IMG/VR virus record: IMGVR_UViG_3300023284_000053
Coordinates: 1 to 37,877 of that record
Source of the DNA: a virus
Direction: 5' to 3' (one strand)
DNA length: 37,877 nucleotides
Part shown: positions 2,515-19,627 of the stretch, piece by piece
How the letters are laid out: each line of letters begins with the position of its first letter
Numbering within the stretch: position 1 is the first letter of the stretch
The notes under the pieces: generated by a model
Databases searched by the model: none
What the model was told of the DNA's origin: nothing
What the model saw: the letters and a program-made list of their open reading frames with translations, nothing else
Made by a program: the position numbers and the translations under genes

Positions 2515-2562
2515 ATGAGTACAGAAGCAGACTACTACTGGTGGTGGTGGATAGGAACGTGA
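2515..2562 (+). CDS. Trp-rich leader peptide ORF (15 aa)
   Basis: ATG at 2515 has a good Shine-Dalgarno (AGGAGA, about 9 nt upstream) and codes MSTEADYYWWWWIGT, with two Tyr codons followed by four consecutive Trp codons. Its TGA stop (2560-2562) overlaps an in-frame GTG (2559) of the 285-aa gene as GTGA. This is the arrangement of a translated leader coupled to the next gene. The main gene lacks a good binding site of its own, which supports coupling. The alternative is a minus-one shift in the TGG run joining both frames into one protein. Confidence 0.5.
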   Translation: MSTEADYYWWWWIGT

Positions 2563-3416
2563 TTAGTGATCAAGACCTACTGATATTGGGGAAGAAGTTA
2601 CACACTTGTTTCACTAACGCACGTACCCGTGTCTCTCAGTATGGTGTAGGGTGGGAGGATGGTGATATTCTGGACCTAGAGTACCCTTACTGCCATATGG
2701 CACTGATGAGTGGTGACTACGATGGGGTCGGGGGTTTGGACAACAACGGCAATGGGCCAGTAATCATCAACAACCAAGTGCAGTACAACCACGAGTGTGA
2801 CAGCCCGGTGTTGAACAAACATGAGCGAGAGAAGTTCTATTCTTTCTTGTTCAATGACTCTGTGTTTGCGGAGTGCTATGTTACAAGGGACCCGAGTAAA
2901 TGTGACAATGATGGAATAACAGTACGCACAAGTTTACCTGCTAACCTAGTGGTAGCTGCGTGCATCGCTACTCGTCAAGCGTGGGAGTTTCCTGACATCG
3001 GGAGGTCTACCATACGGATGATCAAGATGGGCCTTGACCCACGCAAAGCGCACCTCGCAGCACACGCCATCAGGGTCTCCGAAGACGGCACCTACTACAA
3101 AAGCCACAGGGGTGGGCACGTTGCCTTATACCACGATGATATGGACACGGGGGCAGTCAGGAATTACCTAGTGGGTACTCTTGATAAGTATATTAACATG
3201 AATATGGTGGATTATCGTGAAGCACGGAACTACGGAGGTATCCCTTATATGTGGGGAAATGGTGACGAAGTTGGGTTGATTATAAGGGATGTGAAGGTGA
3301 TGCCCAAGGTGAACAGTGACCCCTTCAAGTACATCAAGGATGCAGGAGAGATCGAGAAACGTGTCGATGTAGTTGAAGAGGTGGAACTAGCATACGAAAG
3401 GATACTAAAGCAATGA
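2559..3416 (+). CDS. Unknown protein heading the amidoligase operon (285 aa)
   Basis: Not recognised. The frame is open from GTG at 2541 (291 aa), but GTG at 2559 overlaps the stop of the leader ORF and is preferred. The protein is soluble with an N-terminal helix (ISDQDLLILGKKLHTCF), an acidic Asn/Gly-rich middle (GDYDGVGGLDNNGNG), a helical section (PANLVVAACIATRQAWEF) and HxxD-type residues in GHVALYHDDMD. The last part is strand-rich (NGDEVGLIIRDVKVMP) and then helical. Its stop overlaps the ATG of the class I amidotransferase-like gene by 4 nt, so it is translated with the ligase genes and could supply a substrate-binding or tailoring function. That role is inference from position. Confidence 0.8.
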   Translation: MISDQDLLILGKKLHTCFTNARTRVSQYGVGWEDGDILDLEYPYCHMALMSGDYDGVGGLDNNGNGPVIINNQVQYNHECDSPVLNKHEREKFYSFLFNDSVFAECYVTRDPSKCDNDGITVRTSLPANLVVAACIATRQAWEFPDIGRSTIRMIKMGLDPRKAHLAAHAIRVSEDGTYYKSHRGGHVALYHDDMDTGAVRNYLVGTLDKYINMNMVDYREARNYGGIPYMWGNGDEVGLIIRDVKVMPKVNSDPFKYIKDAGEIEKRVDVVEEVELAYERILKQ

Positions 3417-4054
3417 GCAAAACAGTCTACGTAGTTGGTGGGTACACCGAATACATGATCATGTTCGAGGATAATGGGTGGGTTATTACTGACACCATCG
3501 AGGATGCAGACTTGGTGCAGTTCTGTGGTGGTGAGGACGTTAACCCCGCCCTTTATGGGGAGAAGTCACACTGGTCCTCTCATGTCAACTTCGAACGAGA
3601 TCAATATGAGTCCAAGATGTACGAGATGGCGTTCGAAAACCACAGTGCTATCGCTGGTATCTGTAGGGGTGGGCAATTTGTTCATGTTATGAATGGAGGC
3701 AAACTCTTCCAAGATGTGAACAACCACGGTTTGAGGGGTACACACTATGCACTTATCGAGGTGAAGGAGTTGCTACATCTCGCACGCAATGGTGTTGAAG
3801 TCTCAAGTACACATCACCAGATGATGAGAGAGGGCGTTGGCCTTATCTTGTTAACTTCAGGTGAAGCTACCTTCAAGGCGACAGGTACGGGTGAAGAGGC
3901 GTCGCACTCTCCTGATGTGGAGGCTGTGTACCACAAGATTACTAACTCTTTGTGTTACCAACCACACCCTGAGTTCTACAAGAAGGACCACGAGTGTCAG
4001 AAACTATACTTCAACTTAATAGAGGAGCTGTTGTTCAATGACAACGATAGTTAG
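3413..4054 (+). CDS. Class I glutamine amidotransferase-like hydrolase (peptidase C26 type)
   Basis: A 213-aa protein with the alpha/beta hydrolase pattern of PuuD-type gamma-glutamyl hydrolases. CGGEDVNPALYG (38-49) is the family's GGxDxxPxxYG motif, the nucleophile is Cys84 in GICRGGQ, and His185 and Glu187 in QPHPE complete the triad. His134 and His135 lie in STHHQMM. Family members remove or transfer glutamine amide or gamma-glutamyl groups. There is no signal peptide, so it should act in the cytoplasm. It overlaps its neighbours by 4 and 17 nt, next to an ATP-grasp ligase. It may trim gamma-glutamyl intermediates or release ammonia; the substrate cannot be told from sequence. Confidence 0.88.
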   Translation: MSKTVYVVGGYTEYMIMFEDNGWVITDTIEDADLVQFCGGEDVNPALYGEKSHWSSHVNFERDQYESKMYEMAFENHSAIAGICRGGQFVHVMNGGKLFQDVNNHGLRGTHYALIEVKELLHLARNGVEVSSTHHQMMREGVGLILLTSGEATFKATGTGEEASHSPDVEAVYHKITNSLCYQPHPEFYKKDHECQKLYFNLIEELLFNDNDS

Positions 4055-4907
4055 ACGACGTAAGCTAGGCATGTCCTCAGTGAAGGGGGTAGTGGCCTTT
4101 AGTAAAACAGGTATCAAGTGGGTGAGGAGTGATCGTGTCATACCCCGCGATGACTTGTTTATAAGGTGGGGGTGTACGTGTAACCTACCAGCCAACTGTA
4201 AAGATCGTGCAGTTCTCAACGCTGCAAGGGCCATTCACTTGGTGGCTGACAAACTAGAGTTCAGGCGGGTGTTGGAGGAGCATGAGTTGTGCCCGAAGAC
4301 TTGGTTCGCTTACAAGGATTGGTTGAAGGATGCCCGAGATCACAATGATCATCTCCCTGTGATCTTACGAACTAAGACTCATCATCAAGGACGTGGGTTG
4401 TGGATTTACCACGACTCGTATAATCTAGATATAAAGTGCCAACATCTAGGTGAGGATAATTACTACATAAATGAGTTCATCGACAAGGTAGCTGAGTACC
4501 GTGTGTTCGTGGTCTCGGGGAGGGTGGTGTGTGTAGCAGAGAAGACACCGGGTAATAAGGAAGACGTGGCGTGGAACGTAGCCAAGGGTGGTCGGTTCGA
4601 CAACGTGAAGTGGGGTGCTTGGCCCTTGAAGGCGGTGAGAAAGAGCATCGAGGCGTTCAACTTGAGTGACCTTGACTTCGGGGGTGTGGATGTAATGGTG
4701 GACAAAGAGGGTGAGTGCTACATCCTTGAGATCAACTCCGCCCCATCTCTCACGTCCCCTTACCGGCAAGAGTGCTTTGCCAAAGCTTTTGACTGGATTG
4801 TAGAACACGGCAAAGAACGTATCCCTCTGATCGATGGGCGAGGTGGATACCTCAAGTTCATTCACCCCGCCATCAGTGACCATGCTAGGTTGAAGGAGAA
4901 CGAATGA
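4038..4907 (+). CDS. ATP-grasp carboxylate-amine ligase
   Basis: A 289-aa protein with ATP-grasp features. VILRTKTHHQGRGLWI (108-123) is the ATP-binding lysine strand with a glycine-containing loop, YYINEFIDKVAEYRVFV (142-158) is the hinge and next strand, and DFGGVDVM (213-220) with YILEINSAPSLT (228-239) carries the Mg-binding Asp218, Glu231 and Asn233. ATP-grasp enzymes of this type join a carboxylate to an amine through an acyl phosphate. The basic N-terminus (VRRRKLG) may be extra, since a second ATG lies at 4069. The gene starts 17 nt inside the previous one, with GAGGAG upstream, and ends in an ATGATG overlap with the next gene. Probably a peptide or amino-acid ligase; substrates unknown. 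Confidence 0.9.
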   Translation: MTTIVRRRKLGMSSVKGVVAFSKTGIKWVRSDRVIPRDDLFIRWGCTCNLPANCKDRAVLNAARAIHLVADKLEFRRVLEEHELCPKTWFAYKDWLKDARDHNDHLPVILRTKTHHQGRGLWIYHDSYNLDIKCQHLGEDNYYINEFIDKVAEYRVFVVSGRVVCVAEKTPGNKEDVAWNVAKGGRFDNVKWGAWPLKAVRKSIEAFNLSDLDFGGVDVMVDKEGECYILEINSAPSLTSPYRQECFAKAFDWIVEHGKERIPLIDGRGGYLKFIHPAISDHARLKENE

Positions 4908-5962
4908 TGTGTGGATTGTGTGGAGTCTACGGTGCCATTGGTAAGCAAGAGAAGTACGCCTTTGGTATCCTACAAATGTTTGCCCAACTACGAGGAAGAG
5001 ACTCGACTGGTGTAGGTCTGGTTTACCACAACAGGAAACACAAGCCAGACGTGGTGAAAAGTGTAGGTGGTCAAGAGAGTTTGGTTCTTGATAACCCAGA
5101 GTTCTTTGATCTCTTCGACTGGACGTTGTTGGACAGTGGGTTAGTTTGTGTGATAGGACACAATCGATGGGCCACTATTGGTGACGTTACTGAAGAGAAT
5201 GCCCATCCTTTTCACGTTGGAAATATTATAGGGTGTCACAATGGTACCATCCACCTCTACAAGATGGCTCATCTCGACAGCCACAACTATAAATCGACGG
5301 ATTCCAAGATAATCATAGAAGAGTTGGCAAAAGGTAAGGACATTGCCGAGACCATTGAGTACTTGGATGGTGCGTGGGCGTTGACTTGGTATGACACTAA
5401 GAAACGACGGTTGAATATGTGTCGTAACAAAGAAAGAACACTCTTTGTGACTAAGGCAGAGAACAACAAGACCTTGTTCTGGGCTTCTGAGAATTGGATG
5501 TTGGAGGTTGCATTAACTAAGAGTGGTATTAAACATGATGAGATACAGTCTGTGGTGGTAGACAGGCACTTGGTGTGGAAAATTAAAGGAGATGGTAACA
5601 TCATACTCGATGAAGTTAACCTCGCTGTGGGTGGCAAGATAAGAGCAGGCGATTGGGGGAGTTGGTGTGGTATCTCCCGTTGGGGTAGGGATGAAGACGA
5701 CTGGGGTGAAGAGAAAACCTCTACCAAAGGTGGAAATGTGCTCCCTCTACACCGAGAACATTTTGAAGAAGATTATGCCAACACCTTTGAGAACCGATAC
5801 GTCCCTCGCCGAAGGTTCGAACACCTAACTAAAGATGGTTGTTCCAATTGTACTGGGGACATCGGATGGGGAGACAGAAAGACACTGGTGTGGGTCAATG
5901 AAGACAGCCCACTATGTTGTGATTGCCATGAATATTTAAAAGGTAAAATGAAGGTGAACTGA
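4907..5962 (+). CDS. Stand-alone class II glutamine amidotransferase with C-terminal Cys cluster
   Basis: An N-terminal nucleophile amidotransferase. From the ATG at 4907 the protein is MCGLCGVYGAIG, which puts the catalytic Cys at residue 2; the ATG three bases earlier would leave an extra Met. Family motifs follow: QLRGRDSTGVG (RGxDSxG), IGHNRWATIG, NAHPF and GCHNGTI. These match the GlmS/PurF/AsnB glutaminase domain that releases ammonia from glutamine. No synthetase, PRT or SIS domain follows. Instead the C-terminal third has charged linkers and a Cys-x2-Cys ... Cys-x2-Cys (CSNC and CCDC) cluster, likely a zinc ribbon. Ammonia would have to be passed to a partner, plausibly the neighbouring ligases. 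Confidence 0.9.
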   Translation: MCGLCGVYGAIGKQEKYAFGILQMFAQLRGRDSTGVGLVYHNRKHKPDVVKSVGGQESLVLDNPEFFDLFDWTLLDSGLVCVIGHNRWATIGDVTEENAHPFHVGNIIGCHNGTIHLYKMAHLDSHNYKSTDSKIIIEELAKGKDIAETIEYLDGAWALTWYDTKKRRLNMCRNKERTLFVTKAENNKTLFWASENWMLEVALTKSGIKHDEIQSVVVDRHLVWKIKGDGNIILDEVNLAVGGKIRAGDWGSWCGISRWGRDEDDWGEEKTSTKGGNVLPLHREHFEEDYANTFENRYVPRRRFEHLTKDGCSNCTGDIGWGDRKTLVWVNEDSPLCCDCHEYLKGKMKVN

Positions 5963-5963
5963 T

Positions 5964-6794
5964 ATGAAGATATGTGGAACTAACTTCTCTATCGGTGCTG
6001 ATCCCGAGGTGTTTATCCAAGACAAGAAGACAAAGAGATTCATCGGGGCATACGGAATGATACCCGGTACCAAGGAGAACCCAAGGTACTTGCCCGGTGG
6101 TCTTTGCAAAGGACAGGTGGATGGGATGGCGTTGGAGTTCAACACCTTTCCGGCCCACGACGTACACTCCTTCTCATGCCGTGTATCAACTGGTAAGAGA
6201 GGTTTGGATTACGCTCTCGATTGGGGTCATCACATTGTGGTGCAGCCTACAGTAGAATTTGACAATGAGGAGTGGAGGCGTGCCCCCAAGAAGGCGAGGA
6301 GATTAGGATGTGATCCTGACTTTTGTGCTTGGGGTGGTATCCACGTCAATAATCCACCGGATGGCAAGGTGACGTACCGCACTGGTGCTGGACACATACA
6401 TCTTGGGTGGGGTGGAAGTTTTGACATCACGGAGGAGTTCAAAGAAATCTGCGGTGCCCTTGTTCGAGAGCAAGACGCATTAAATGGTGTGGCCTCACTT
6501 TTATATGACCAAGATACCAAGAGACGTAAGCTTTATGGTAAGGCCGGGTGTTTCAGACCTAAGACTTACGGGGTTGAGTACCGCACTTTGTCTAACTCTT
6601 GGGTGAGGAACACGGTCCTGACTAGATACGTAGCACGAAGAACCTTCCAAGCAGCGAGGAACATGATGAGAGGAACCATGATACAGACACCAGAGGTGGA
6701 GGACATTATTAACAGTAACAAGATAGAAGAGGCAAAGTATTTCCTCAACCACAACAATATAACCCTACCTCCTGGCAAGTATAGAGTGGTGTGA
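5964..6794 (+). CDS. phiEco32-type COOH-NH2 ligase (amidoligase, glutamine-synthetase-like fold)
   Basis: A 276-aa protein that matches the phage COOH-NH2 ligase type 2 family described around phage phiEco32. Motifs in order: IGADPEVFI (10-18), QVDGMALEFN (51-60), LGCDPDFCAWG (114-124), RTGAGHIHLGWG (139-150) and a late Arg/Glu block, GCFRPKTYGVEYRTLSN (195-211). The acidic and His residues are those expected to bind metal and ATP in the glutamine synthetase/GCS-like fold. Members are predicted to form amide bonds between carboxyl and amino groups using ATP. The start follows AAGGTG and lies one base after the previous stop. The substrate is unknown. Confidence 0.9.
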   Translation: MKICGTNFSIGADPEVFIQDKKTKRFIGAYGMIPGTKENPRYLPGGLCKGQVDGMALEFNTFPAHDVHSFSCRVSTGKRGLDYALDWGHHIVVQPTVEFDNEEWRRAPKKARRLGCDPDFCAWGGIHVNNPPDGKVTYRTGAGHIHLGWGGSFDITEEFKEICGALVREQDALNGVASLLYDQDTKRRKLYGKAGCFRPKTYGVEYRTLSNSWVRNTVLTRYVARRTFQAARNMMRGTMIQTPEVEDIINSNKIEEAKYFLNHNNITLPPGKYRVV

Positions 6795-6797
6795 TCT

Positions 6798-7364
6798 ATG
6801 TATGTTGATAATAAGGATTACGTTCAGATGAGATTGGTAGGCACAATCGTTAGAGACCTAAAGGCGGGAGGTTTGGTCACTGTCTTAGATGTATACGACA
6901 CACCCCGAGGTCTTTACACTACGGTGTGCAAGGTGGGTGTTGAGGATGATGATGATGAAGAGCGGGAAGATAATCAGTACCGTATTTGTCTGGATGATTT
7001 GGACTTATCCTCGCCTTCTCTCGGTAATATAGATTTTGAAGGAAGCACTTACTATGTGTCACGTTTACCGAAAAGAAACGATTGGAGGCAGGGTTTGAGA
7101 AAGGACAACCTCGTATTTGTTCACGGTGGAGTACGGTACTACTACAACTTACCCTCTATGGATGTGCTGAGTGCTCCTGTATACAACAAGTACAAACTCT
7201 ACCGCAAGGGACAGGCATTTTCCAGAGAGTTTAGTGTTGACAAGGACGGAGATGTGTGGTATAAATGTAGAGAAAAGGTTGGTAAGGACGTTGATGGAGT
7301 GCCAATCTTGCACGAGAAATTTGAGTGGTTGAAGGAGGCTCTTGAAGATGCTCTTGAAAGATAA
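6798..7364 (+). CDS. Unknown protein inside the amidoligase operon (188 aa)
   Basis: Not recognised. The ATG at 6798 is three bases after the previous stop and the end overlaps the second amidoligase gene by 17 nt. The sequence is strand-rich, with an SH3- or KOW-like beginning (MRLVGTIVRDLKAGGLVTVLDVYDTPRG), an acidic loop (DDDDEERED) and paired repeats of the kind GSTYYVSRLPKRNDW and GVRYYYNLP. It ends with a helix (EKFEWLKEALEDALER). Being sandwiched between two ligases, it could be an adaptor, a substrate carrier or an accessory subunit; this is inference only. Confidence 0.75.
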   Translation: MYVDNKDYVQMRLVGTIVRDLKAGGLVTVLDVYDTPRGLYTTVCKVGVEDDDDEEREDNQYRICLDDLDLSSPSLGNIDFEGSTYYVSRLPKRNDWRQGLRKDNLVFVHGGVRYYYNLPSMDVLSAPVYNKYKLYRKGQAFSREFSVDKDGDVWYKCREKVGKDVDGVPILHEKFEWLKEALEDALER

Positions 7365-8292
7365 TATCGGGGATTACTTTGGTTTCGGAGACCTTGAAGA
7401 AAAGGTTGTTGGTATCGAGATCGAGATGGAAGCTGACACAGAGTTCCCAGATAGTAAGGAGACAAGATACTACTGGATCAAGGAACATGATGGGTCTTTG
7501 AGGGGGGAGTACAACATAGAGTACGTCTTGAGAAAACCGATGCCAAAGAAATCAGCCATGAGGGCGCTTGACAAACTGGCACTGGCGTTGAAGCAGTACG
7601 ACACAGAGGTTGTTGATTCTGTCAGAGCAGGCACACACGTACACATCAACGTGAGGGACCTATCCTTCTTGGAGATGTGGACTATGGTAACTTGTTGGTA
7701 CATCGTTGAGAAGTTACTCACTCACACCATGTGCGGAGAAGGTAGGGTGGGTAATCACTTCTGTCTAGGCGTTGAGGAAGCTGACGTTGTGTTGTTCGAA
7801 ATCTGTAAGGTGTTGAGAGGACAACGTATGGGAAGATTGGATAAGGATGAGGTGAGATACTCGGCCCTCAATTTTGTCTCTCTGTTCAATTATGGCTCTC
7901 TAGAATTTCGGGCTATGAGGACACCTATAAACTTCGAAGAGATCAAACAGTGGGTAGACATCCTCCTTGCTATTAAAGAAAACTCCAAGCTCTTCCCCCA
8001 TCCTCGACACGTAATAGAAAACTTTAGTTATGGGGGGGAGAGGAATTTCTTGAGGCAACTTCTCGGTAATGAAAATGCAGAGATGGTAATGCGTCGGGAC
8101 CCTGATTGGGAGAGAAAACTAAAGAAGGGGGTTAGGTTAGCACAAGAAATAGCTTACACCAGAGATAATTGGGGTAAAGAAGAAGAAAGGAAGGAGAGAG
8201 AATTACAAATGTATATTGAGATACCACAAAGACAACATTTAAACATGGAACAATTTGCGAAATTATTTAATGTGGAGATTGATAATGGATAG
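7348..8292 (+). CDS. Second amidoligase (Amidoligase_2 type)
   Basis: ATG at 7348 lies nine bases after AGGAGG (7333-7338) and gives 314 aa; a TTG at 7342 is too close to that site. Motifs of the Amidoligase_2 family are present: VGIEIEME (21-28), KEHDGSLRG (45-53), IEYVLRKP (57-64), AGTHVHINV (94-102) and a late RYSALNF ... GSLEFRAMRTP block (170-193). The Glu, His and Arg residues are those of the metal and nucleotide site in the glutamine-synthetase-like fold. The last 60 residues are charged helix, likely for protein contacts. This family also forms amide bonds with ATP. Two different amidoligases in one operon suggests sequential couplings on one product. Confidence 0.88.
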   Translation: MLLKDNIGDYFGFGDLEEKVVGIEIEMEADTEFPDSKETRYYWIKEHDGSLRGEYNIEYVLRKPMPKKSAMRALDKLALALKQYDTEVVDSVRAGTHVHINVRDLSFLEMWTMVTCWYIVEKLLTHTMCGEGRVGNHFCLGVEEADVVLFEICKVLRGQRMGRLDKDEVRYSALNFVSLFNYGSLEFRAMRTPINFEEIKQWVDILLAIKENSKLFPHPRHVIENFSYGGERNFLRQLLGNENAEMVMRRDPDWERKLKKGVRLAQEIAYTRDNWGKEEERKERELQMYIEIPQRQHLNMEQFAKLFNVEIDNG

Positions 8293-13189: not shown

Positions 13190-13709
13190 ATACGGAGACC
13201 AAGTTCAACTCAAAAACGGGAGATGTTTTGGAAACGGAGAGTCTTGGGCTACTATCATGTATCATAGTGGCAAGGGGTACGCCTTAAGTTACGGAGATAG
13301 GGATGGATCGTGGGTGGAGGGTAGACACCTTGAACTTGTAGACGAGGAGAAGAGAATGAATCCTAAAGATAAAGTTGCCTTGACTAAGCTGGCAATTGGT
13401 TTGCTCCCTGCTACTGGTGTGTTGTGGGGTGCGGCAGCGTGTGCTGATGGTGCTGCTAAGTACGGTGCTTACAATTGGAGAGCGGAGAAAATCTCTTACA
13501 CCGTCTACCTCGACGCCATGTTGCGGCACATCTACTGTCTGTTAGACGGAGAGAACTACGCCAAGGATAGCGGGAAACACCATCTTGGTCATATTATCGC
13601 CACCGCCTCTATCTTAGCAGATGCTATCGAAAATGATTGTATCATAGAAGACAGACCCTTAGTGGGTAGGGCACCAGAGATAATGGAGTTGTATCATGAC
13701 AAAATATAG
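13182..13709 (+). CDS. dNTP pyrophosphohydrolase-like (dGTP_diPhyd_N / MazG-related) protein
   Basis: GTG at 13182 follows AAGGAGG. Residues 1-58 look like a small SH3/KOW-type barrel (KYGDQVQLKNGRCFG). Residues 59-175 match the phage dATP/dGTP diphosphohydrolase N-terminal family: GAAACADGAAKYGAYNWR, YLDAMLRHIYCLLDGE, and HHLGHIIATASILADAIEN, with helix-borne Glu, His and Asp residues for metal binding. Such enzymes hydrolyse dNTPs to dNMPs and shape the pool. An in-frame ATG at 13356 sits five bases after GAGGAG, so a short form lacking the barrel may also be made. It lies among replication genes. No PurZ gene is present, so a 2-aminoadenine genome is not indicated. Confidence 0.82.
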   Translation: MFKYGDQVQLKNGRCFGNGESWATIMYHSGKGYALSYGDRDGSWVEGRHLELVDEEKRMNPKDKVALTKLAIGLLPATGVLWGAAACADGAAKYGAYNWRAEKISYTVYLDAMLRHIYCLLDGENYAKDSGKHHLGHIIATASILADAIENDCIIEDRPLVGRAPEIMELYHDKI

Positions 13710-14166
13710 GACTGACTTCGGTAATCGTAACTGGCTCTCGTTACCTCGTCTAACCCCCTTCGCCATAGGACCACATCACGACCCCTATATGCTACGGTGG
13801 AGGCTGTTCCCTACTAACAAGTGGGGTAACCTGTACCTACACTGGTTCAGGCACGATGATGAGGATAGAGCCTTACACGACCATCCTTGGAAGAGTATGA
13901 GCATCATGTTGTGGGGTGTAACTGATGAAATTTATCTTGACAAAGGATATGATAGGGAACGTATAAGGAGTACCCCTCTCTTTTGGCCTGTGTTTCGTAG
14001 TGCTAAGTTTGCCCACCGTCTTATCATCCACCGTCGTGCCCTCACCTTGTTCTTCACGGGACCTAGGGTGAGGGATTGGGGTTTCCTCTGTCCTAAGGGG
14101 TGGCGACCGTATTGGGAGTTTGTTGATATGAAAAATCCGGGTGAATCTGGGCCGGGGTGTGATTGA
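13696..14166 (+). CDS. Cupin-like phage protein (156 aa)
   Basis: The sequence contains HWFRHDDEDRALHDHPWKS, SIMLWGVTDEIYL, FRSAKFAHRLIIHRR and LTLFFTGPRVRDWGF. This is the small cupin-type family common in phages, where the HDHPW and AHRL blocks carry the putative metal ligands. It begins with 14 nt inside the previous gene and ends in an ATGA-type overlap. Such proteins are predicted metal-binding barrels with unknown substrate. Confident on family, not on role. Confidence 0.75.
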   Translation: MTKYRTDFGNRNWLSLPRLTPFAIGPHHDPYMLRWRLFPTNKWGNLYLHWFRHDDEDRALHDHPWKSMSIMLWGVTDEIYLDKGYDRERIRSTPLFWPVFRSAKFAHRLIIHRRALTLFFTGPRVRDWGFLCPKGWRPYWEFVDMKNPGESGPGCD

Positions 14167-17005: not shown

Positions 17006-17208
17006 TCTACTTCGTCACCGATGGTCCTGTCCCAATGTACACCAGTGAGGGTCGTGAAGTGTGGCAAGTACAGGCACAAGTAAGTGACGACAATGGAAAG
17101 ACGTGCGAACCTATGGTCTTTACGTTTGACACAGAAGAACACGCAATCAAGTTCAAGAGGGACATCAATTACAAGATGGAACCCACTAAATTGGGAGAGA
17201 AAGAATGA
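16984..17208 (+). CDS. Small hypothetical protein (74 aa)
   Basis: ATG at 16984, 22 nt inside endonuclease I, gives 74 aa with a strand-helix pattern (LLIYFVTDGPVPMYTSEG, WQVQAQVSDDNG, FTFDTEEHAIKFKRDI). Its stop overlaps the next ATG by 4 nt. No family recognised. Confidence 0.6.
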   Translation: MAKDGLLIYFVTDGPVPMYTSEGREVWQVQAQVSDDNGKTCEPMVFTFDTEEHAIKFKRDINYKMEPTKLGEKE

Positions 17209-17741
17209 GTTATCGACCTATCACCGATATATGGTTTCTAGCTAGAGCTAGACTACAAAGTGGGGTTAAATACTATGGAGCCTACCTTGGTGGTTTTCCT
17301 GAGAGAGCAAGAGCTTTACTAGGAGTAAGATTGGATGAACAAGTTCTTCATGTGTGCGGGGGTATGGCAAAACTTTATCCCTATAAAGGAGGTTTTGGCC
17401 CGCAAGATATGACACTAGATATGGACCCTGAATGTAATCCCGACTACTTACAAGATGCTCGTAATCCCTTCCCTAAAGGGTTTAAGGCTATTCTTATGGA
17501 CCCACCTTACAGCGAAGAAGACGCGGCACATTACACACCGGGTTCAGACTGCTACCCAAAACCAAATATATTGATAAAGAACGCGATGAACGCCTTACCT
17601 ATAGGTGGTAGAGTTGGTCTTATCCACTACATTCTCCCCGCAAAACCTAAAAATGCTAAATTTGTAGCCGCTATTGGGGTTATGTGTGGGTTTAACAATC
17701 GTATTAGAGTTTACTCCGTTTTTGAAAAGATAGAAAAATGA
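17205..17741 (+). CDS. DNA methyltransferase-like protein (DPPY motif)
   Basis: A 178-aa protein with a short Rossmann-type pattern. EQVLHVCGGMAK (45-56) occupies the AdoMet motif I position, but with CGG in place of FxGxG. LDMDPE is a motif II-like acidic strand, and ILMDPPYSEED (96-106) is the catalytic D-P-P-Y motif of N6-adenine or N4-cytosine methylases. No target recognition domain and no cognate nuclease are seen. It may methylate phage DNA to escape restriction, but the weak motif I leaves open a different substrate. Overlaps neighbours by 4 nt. Confidence 0.75.
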   Translation: MSYRPITDIWFLARARLQSGVKYYGAYLGGFPERARALLGVRLDEQVLHVCGGMAKLYPYKGGFGPQDMTLDMDPECNPDYLQDARNPFPKGFKAILMDPPYSEEDAAHYTPGSDCYPKPNILIKNAMNALPIGGRVGLIHYILPAKPKNAKFVAAIGVMCGFNNRIRVYSVFEKIEK

Positions 17742-18665: not shown

Positions 18666-18822
18666 ACGAGAACATAAATACCGCAACCCTGAGGCTCGTA
18701 AGTTGAGAGAGGAGCCAGCATTTAGGCTGAAGATACGTAGAGATAAGAGAGTACCACCCGTAGAAGAGGTCTCTGTTCAAGAGGCTACAATCTTAATGGA
18801 AAAGGATGAACAAGATGAATAG
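18655..18822 (+). CDS. Small charged hypothetical protein (55 aa)
   Basis: ATG at 18655 lies inside the previous acidic gene. The product is a basic segment (TKREHKYRNPEARKLREE, RLKIRRDKRV) followed by an acidic tail. The basic part, NP-x-AR-x-L-x-x-x-P-x-FR, recalls a motif seen in many small phage proteins; a likeness to ribosome-rescue ArfA was considered and is too weak to use. It overlaps the protease signal sequence by 17 nt. Confidence 0.55.
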   Translation: MTTKREHKYRNPEARKLREEPAFRLKIRRDKRVPPVEEVSVQEATILMEKDEQDE

Positions 18823-19627
18823 ACTTAAGCAGACTATCGGAGCAGGGGCACTTGTGCTTGGCTTGGCTATGGCTACTCCCCTTGCTGCTTGGGAGAGCGT
18901 CAGTGAGATGAATACAACTGTCGATGAGACTAACTTCATCGTAGGTAGGGGGTGTTCAGGTACCTTGATCAGTACAGAGTACCGTCTCATCGTCACTGCG
19001 TACCACTGTGTCTCCTCTAACATCAGGACTGTCACCAAGGACGTGGTAGGTAAAGATGGGAAGATAGAGAAAGAACAGTTCGAGAAGCGTAAGCGTATGA
19101 CTGTGCAGCAGAAAGACTACGATGAGTTTGATCAGGTGGGTTCTTTGTCCTACGAGACAGAGATTGTGGCTTACTACAAGGAGCGCGACCTTGCTCTTCT
19201 TCAGTTGGTGGGTACCAAGCTTCGGTCTACACAGTCTGCCAACGTCCTTCCTAAAGGTGTGAAGGTACTGCGCGGAGAGAGAGTGGTAGCTGTCGGCAAC
19301 CCACGTATGATGGACGCAAGCATCACTGCCGGTATTGTCTCCTCCACCACCCGTAAGTTTGCGATTTTCCCATCTGAGGAAGCGCCTTACATCCAGTTCG
19401 ATGCCAACATCCAGCCGGGTTCTAGTGGTGGTGCTCTTTTCAACGATAAAGGTCAGTACATCGGCACCACTGTAGCTGCCTTCCCCGGCAGTGACCTCAG
19501 CCTTGCTATTCCTGTCTATGAACTACACACGATGTTAGACAAGGCTTGCTTTGCTTCTATCTACGACCCGGATGCAGACGATGAACTCTGCCGTAACCCC
19601 GTGGAGGATGAAGGCGACGATGACTGA
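18806..19627 (+). CDS. Secreted trypsin-like serine protease
   Basis: A 273-aa chymotrypsin-fold protease. Residues 1-28 form a signal peptide: Lys/Arg start, hydrophobic core (GALVLGLAMA), and AWES after Ala-x-Ala-like residues, so it is exported to the periplasm or beyond. The catalytic triad is His67 (TAYHC), Asp128 (RDLALLQL) and Ser207 (PGSSGG). Cys50 and Cys68 sit where trypsins have a disulfide next to the active-site His; Cys248 and Cys262 may form another. No PDZ domain, and an acidic C-terminus. It overlaps the RNR gene by 8 nt. Secreted proteases are uncommon in lytic phages; it could act on the envelope, a host receptor or virion proteins. Confidence 0.88.
   Translation: MNKMNRLKQTIGAGALVLGLAMATPLAAWESVSEMNTTVDETNFIVGRGCSGTLISTEYRLIVTAYHCVSSNIRTVTKDVVGKDGKIEKEQFEKRKRMTVQQKDYDEFDQVGSLSYETEIVAYYKERDLALLQLVGTKLRSTQSANVLPKGVKVLRGERVVAVGNPRMMDASITAGIVSSTTRKFAIFPSEEAPYIQFDANIQPGSSGGALFNDKGQYIGTTVAAFPGSDLSLAIPVYELHTMLDKACFASIYDPDADDELCRNPVEDEGDDD

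Follow-up and report, generated by a model that had tools for sequence, protein, structure and literature searches.

The 37,877-base IMG/VR virus record IMGVR_UViG_3300023284_000053, analysed over its full length (the window), contains a cassette of seven overlapping or closely packed plus-strand genes at positions 2541-8292, with replication genes as neighbours. The genes are, in order, UP, a C26-type hydrolase, an ATP-grasp ligase, a class II glutaminase, a COOH-NH2 ligase, UNK and an Amidoligase_2 enzyme, UP and UNK being the two proteins without an assigned function; the successive spacings are -4, -17, -1, +1, +3 and -23 bases. An initial annotation of this DNA had described six of these genes as an operon for amide or peptide bond formation akin to the set of phage phiEco32. 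All six are present at the positions it gave, with gaps of -23 to +3 bases, but the unit does not start at 3413 as proposed: it begins earlier, with the UP gene (2541..3416), which shares 4 bases with the C26 gene. Promoter and terminator scans returned nothing above shuffles. The genes represent a phage cassette that is widespread and already described in the literature, here with a minority version of its ATP-grasp ligase.

Five enzyme families were identified, and catalytic residues are kept in all of them. The PHROGs matches of the five enzyme genes (E-values 2e-28 to 5e-64) agree with the Pfam identities. The C26-type class I amidotransferase (GATase)-like hydrolase (3413..4054), a predicted gamma-glutamyl amide hydrolase, matches PF07722 (4.4e-19; 69.6 bits, cut-off 20.5) and phrog_7218 (9e-53). 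Its Cys84, His185 and Glu187 are invariant in an alignment of 8 sequences, and a STHHQMM motif is present. Among solved proteins the top scorers against its profile are C26-type enzymes including PuuD, with the carbamoyl-phosphate synthase small chain, an ammonia-channelling subunit, far behind; the equivalog of the Campylobacter-type gamma-glutamyl-CDP-amidate hydrolase (NF045546) was matched with 24.7 bits, below its cut-off of 250. The RimK-like ATP-grasp ligase (4038..4907) matches RimK (PF08443, 1.1e-8, 35.3 bits) and R2K_3 (34 bits), each above cut-off, and TIGR00768 (9.4e-16). K72, R111, E153, R155, D218, E231 and N233 are invariant in an alignment with relatives and the ExN motif is retained. 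Scores for the RimK S6 glutamate ligase proper fell below the cut-offs, with 17.4 bits for NF007764 (cut-off 331) and 58 bits for TIGR00768 (cut-off 143).

The stand-alone class II glutaminase (GlmS/PurF-N-like, 4907..5962) matches GATase_6 (6.4e-16) and phrog_4736 (2e-55). A start at 4907, the second ATG, is preferred over 4904, being favoured by the relatives and by the spacing to the Shine-Dalgarno sequence GAAGGAG; only with this start is the nucleophilic Cys residue 2, the position that it occupies in 13 of 15 aligned sequences. R87, N112, G113 and D132 are invariant, and the class II N-terminal nucleophile (Ntn) site is present. The C-terminal CxxC...CxxC tail is kept in most relatives, its first Cys pair being nearly invariant. 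A LysW-like carrier function of this tail (DDWGEE) was considered and dropped, the motif not being conserved among relatives. The phiEco32-type COOH-NH2 ligase (5964..6794) matches PF14395 (2.1e-7; 30.9 bits, cut-off 25) and phrog_3815 (2e-62), with the E/H/R set kept and 21 invariant columns among 14 sequences. The Amidoligase_2 enzyme (7342..8292) matches PF12224 (7.7e-9; 36.2 bits, cut-off 22) and phrog_7469 (5e-64). It contains the ExExE, HxH and ExR motifs, and E26/E28/E30, E60, H99/H101 and E188/R190 are invariant in an alignment with relatives; its start codon is TTG, an in-frame ATG at 7348 being also possible. Profile comparison of the two amidoligases detected no similarity between them. 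The enzyme families named in the initial annotation were all borne out, and the alignments with relatives show intact catalytic residues in every enzyme.

Homologues of the COOH-NH2 ligase were found in 311 phage records and those of Amidoligase_2 in 288. Loci were fetched by ligase homology (nearly all by the COOH-NH2 ligase, and not selected by C26) and scanned with hidden Markov models (HMMs). Among the 59 with complete flanks, glutaminase and Amidoligase_2 are present in all, ATP-grasp and UNK in 58 each, UP in 51 and C26 in 50, while 57 carry either C26 or a gamma-glutamyl cyclotransferase (GGCT). In the reverse test all 70 loci that were fetched by C26 and had enough downstream sequence contain the other five families. 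The order COOH-NH2 ligase, UNK, Amidoligase_2 occurs in 98 of 106 loci. The co-occurrence is near absolute in both directions and not due to chance; it supports the proposed operon, and the scattering of genes that would speak against one is not what the 59 ligase-fetched and 70 C26-fetched loci contain. Annotated relatives with the same set upstream of primase/helicase are PA11, LUZ24, CVT22, CW02, RIO-1, KIT05, Salmonella phage 7-11, BUCT695, phiM6, QDWS535, Slicky01, phiEco32 and Bas92, and in the window the COOH-NH2 ligase, Amidoligase_2, glutaminase and ATP-grasp are likewise encoded together beside primase/helicase. Phage tf also carries a member, and a crAss-like phage and a cyanophage contain more distantly related versions.

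Two further arrangements were seen around these loci. A 176-kb contig from an 'archaeon' metagenome-assembled genome, which carries sigma-70 and PhoH genes, has an IMP dehydrogenase gene immediately after the COOH-NH2 ligase and an adenylosuccinate synthetase gene after that, with a glutaminase-Amidoligase_2 pair 5 kb upstream (L109, 3628-13557). Genes for NAD salvage (Prs, nicotin(am)ate phosphoribosyltransferase) are located within about 6 kb upstream of the cassette in three unrelated phages, Slicky01, 7-11 and Lbo-JY46 (L006 1-1755, L009 46-2609, L111 2757-6966).

UP (291 amino acids) is a cassette-linked family, recognised here for the first time as a regular member: 51 of the 59 complete loci encode it ahead of the hydrolase. 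Its AlphaFold model has a confident core (pLDDT 81), and in a fold search none of the PDB chains compared matched it with a Z of at least 2. Significant BFVD matches include proteins of phages CVT22, CW02, GAP52 and Proteus phage 3H10_20, that of RIO-1 being weaker. The conserved residues are C51, S107, R145, E149, G164 and H193; the set of C51, S107, R145, E149 and H193 would fit an enzyme. In phiEco32 and LUZ24 (L114 6812-8993, L003 5443-7380) a diverged protein pair with an N-terminal CFG motif is encoded just upstream of the COOH-NH2 ligase. These two proteins may be distant relatives of UP, to which their profiles are weakly similar (probabilities of 84 and 62); the GAP52 match supports this without proving it. 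UNK (188 amino acids, 6798..7364), a probable non-enzymatic partner, matches phrog_11055 (5e-21); it is the unknown protein of the initial annotation. The N-terminal half of its model (pLDDT 91) is similar to SH3, Tudor and chromo barrels (Z up to 6.4), but the fold search returned generic SH3/Tudor barrels only, over residues 4-103, and Foldseek gave no match that reached E 0.001. This likeness is too generic, and therefore no function is claimed from the fold; because of its fixed position between the two ligases, UNK may serve as a scaffold for them.

The proposals made for this cassette reportedly trace back to Iyer and Aravind (2009) and, later, Hardies (2013). The module has been named a peptidoglycan modification cassette, with a block to superinfection or a weakening of the wall ahead of lysis as its possible effect (PMC5498523, PMC11945000, PMC10580990). 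The proposal was put forward for RIO-1/PSA-HP1 in PMC5498523, which cites Hardies 2013, and for LUZ24-like phages in PMC11945000, while the phiEco32 set is cited as cell-wall modification in PMC10580990. The relation to phiEco32-like phages seen in the initial annotation thus stands, but its description of those sets as lacking a known product leaves out this published proposal. No biochemical or genetic experiment on the cassette product, and no muropeptide data, were found in the literature.

Like the window, the RIO-1/PSA-HP1 cassette and the phiEco32 set contain GGCT or C26, the glutaminase, both ligases, an ATP-grasp and a small protein between the ligases, and lie upstream of primase/helicase. 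The window differs from them in having C26 in place of GGCT and an ATP-grasp of the other subfamily, located between C26 and the glutaminase and not after Amidoligase_2. The Paundecimviruses PA11 and TC6 share C26, glutaminase, COOH-NH2 ligase, UNK, Amidoligase_2, ATP-grasp and primase with the window; their ATP-grasp follows Amidoligase_2, and their proteins are 24-42% identical.

In a set of 99 distinct complete loci, part of which had been selected by C26, 68 have the ATP-grasp gene solely after Amidoligase_2, 20 solely before it and 10 at both positions. The 'before' and 'after' kinds split almost completely in a FastTree phylogeny, which is provisional and carries a long-branch warning, with 2 changes of the 'after' label compared to 33 in shuffles. 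The window enzyme groups with the 'before' kind, and the sequence closest to it (63% identical) comes from a locus with both kinds (L180). The window phage has the minority version of the cassette, defined by a second ATP-grasp subfamily that occurs alone in about one fifth of the complete loci and is described here for the first time. This version perhaps uses a different acceptor or a different amino acid.

C26 and GGCT are unrelated families that both cleave gamma-glutamyl amides. A GGCT was found in 7 of the 9 complete loci without C26 and in 12 of the 50 with it (Fisher p 0.003, kinship uncorrected). In RIO-1 and Slicky01 it lies between UP and the glutaminase, the usual slot of C26, and in L040 directly before the glutaminase, again in the C26 slot. 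These GGCTs belong to PF06094 (GGACT), with matches up to 4e-22. The alternation, a new observation, is suggestive of a gamma-glutamyl intermediate. Since a cyclotransferase does not release ammonia from glutamine, the role shared by C26 and GGCT would be the removal of a gamma-glutamyl group. Because of this alternation the predicted activity of C26 is more likely that of a gamma-glutamyl hydrolase than that of an ammonia-supplying amidotransferase, and a separate glutaminase, predicted to supply ammonia, is already present in the cassette. The C26-type identity given in the initial annotation is retained, but its count of this gene as one of two amidotransferases is disfavoured.

Several observations weigh against a gamma-glutamyl intermediate. 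C26 and GGCT occur together in 12 of the 59 complete loci, and L086 has neither by HMM while keeping the rest of the cassette. About 5 changes of C26 state were placed on the COOH-NH2 ligase tree, just 2 independent pairs lying on well-supported branches; because independent changes are so few, the alternation cannot reach significance after kinship correction. Neither amidoligase profile had a significant match among PDB sequences, and no link to a solved gamma-glutamyl ligase was found. C26 could also act as a class I amidotransferase. Strict mutual exclusion of C26 and GGCT was rejected, many loci carrying both.

The preferred reading, with a probability of about 45%, is an amide-ligation pathway that runs by way of a gamma-glutamyl intermediate and is probably produced in early infection. 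The class II glutaminase would free ammonia from glutamine, and the ATP-grasp and the two ATP-dependent amidoligases, held together by UNK, would make as many as three amide bonds in succession, one or more of them joining the gamma-carboxylate of glutamate to an amine. The gamma-glutamyl group would then be removed by the C26 hydrolase, or by GGCT in relatives, while UP, possibly cysteine-dependent, would act first or last. In the PuuA-PuuD (putrescine) and BtrJ-BtrG (butirosin) systems a ligase adds a gamma-glutamyl group and a C26 hydrolase or GGCT-family enzyme removes it. The ligate-then-cleave logic is similar, with PuuD acting after PuuA and BtrG after BtrJ; the ligase families differ, and the likeness is one of analogy and not of membership. 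Serial ATP-dependent amide ligation with glutaminase-derived ammonia and gamma-glutamyl cleavage is the best-supported part of the scheme, and amide ligation as such is well supported; the reaction order, substrates, product and roles of UP and UNK are inferred. A small amide or peptide, or an adduct on a cell-envelope peptide, is a more likely product than a modified base. Immediate transcription was seen by others in a relative, PSA-HP1, in which the homologous genes are expressed immediately, ahead of host-takeover and DNA-metabolism genes (PMC7082346). A more extensive version, in which an unknown small molecule or envelope adduct is produced immediately after infection by gamma-glutamyl protection, ligation and deprotection, with UP as a new fold and enzyme family and with exchangeable ATP-grasp subfamilies giving different product versions, is doubtful.

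Peptidoglycan modification, in which the ligases would add unusual linkages to the side-chain peptides of wall precursors, blocking superinfection or preparing lysis, is less probable but a serious alternative. It is the published proposal for RIO-1/PSA-HP1, LUZ24-like phages and phiEco32, the hosts among the matches listed are Gram-negative, and the immediate expression in PSA-HP1 fits superinfection exclusion. The nearest solved relatives of the ATP-grasp include RimK-like and D-Ala-D-Ala-ligase-like enzymes. However, C26 and GGCT require a gamma-glutamyl group with a free alpha-amine, which D-Glu within the wall stem does not offer, and no lipid-carrier or N-acetylmuramic acid (MurNAc)-recognition domain was seen in the cassette.

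Protein tagging, in which the ATP-grasp and the amidoligases would attach a glutamyl or short peptide tag to a protein of the host or of the phage, is unlikely. ATP-grasps of the RimK type attach glutamates to ribosomal protein S6, and the window enzyme matches the broad RimK family. Peptide tagging by phage R2K ATP-grasps has been proposed (PMC4431377), and R2K_3 scores above cut-off here. Two more ligases, a glutaminase and a gamma-glutamyl hydrolase nevertheless exceed the needs of a tag, and no conserved acceptor protein was identified; nothing specifically supports the protein tag that the initial annotation had offered as a product. Salvage of nitrogen and amino acids, with host gamma-glutamyl compounds (glutathione, gamma-glutamyl polyamines) processed to feed phage synthesis, is very unlikely: C26/PuuD and GGCT are catabolic in cells and the cassette has NAD-salvage genes close by in Slicky01, 7-11 and Lbo-JY46, but three ATP-consuming ligases indicate synthesis, not breakdown.

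Hypermodification, with bases of the DNA or the nucleotide pool decorated with an amino-acid or amide group, is the least probable of the alternatives, and a modified base the least likely of the main target options, although the glutaminase is of PurF/GlmS type, the cassette adjoins replication genes and distant locus L109 has purine genes (IMP dehydrogenase, adenylosuccinate synthetase) after its COOH-NH2 ligase. Bulky genome-wide base modification is unlikely because DNA of cassette phages is cut by enzymes with varied sites, that of tf by RsaI, HpaI, EcoRV, SmaI and HaeIII (PMC3517423) and that of the LUZ24-like U17 by 11 of 16 enzymes (PMC11945000); U17 DNA resists the other 5 of 16, site numbers per enzyme not being considered. 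No thymidylate-synthase-like or hydroxymethylase partner is found among the annotated window genes. These digests lend indirect support to the earlier preference for a peptide or amide over a modified base. The accompanying statement that no base-modification genes lie nearby needs amending, as a DPPY-motif DNA methyltransferase-like gene matching phrog_3816 is present at 17205-17741, but this gene lies 9 kb from the cassette and is not part of it.

The plus strand of the window further encodes primase/helicase, DNA polymerase, nucleases and ribonucleotide reductase, and the later half is mostly coded on the minus strand. A DUF7666 protein is located at 1095-1727, the C-terminal half of which is a near-perfect Ala/Arg/Asp repeat (AARDAAWAAARDAA...). 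A cysteine-dioxygenase-like protein (phrog_4786, 6.7e-39) is encoded at 13696-14166. The gene at 18806-19627, unusual cargo in a small phage, encodes a homologue of trypsin-like serine proteases that appears to have a signal peptide and matches the protease family phrog_9683.

Costly as it is, this multi-enzyme set is maintained in hundreds of sequenced phages, which range from E. coli and Pseudomonas phages to a cyanophage and a crAss-like phage. With the gamma-glutamyl link, UP and the two ATP-grasp subfamilies, the vague label of 'cell wall modification' gives way to specific questions for metabolomics and genetics; phiEco32 and Bas92, E. coli phages that carry the cassette, are suited to such work.

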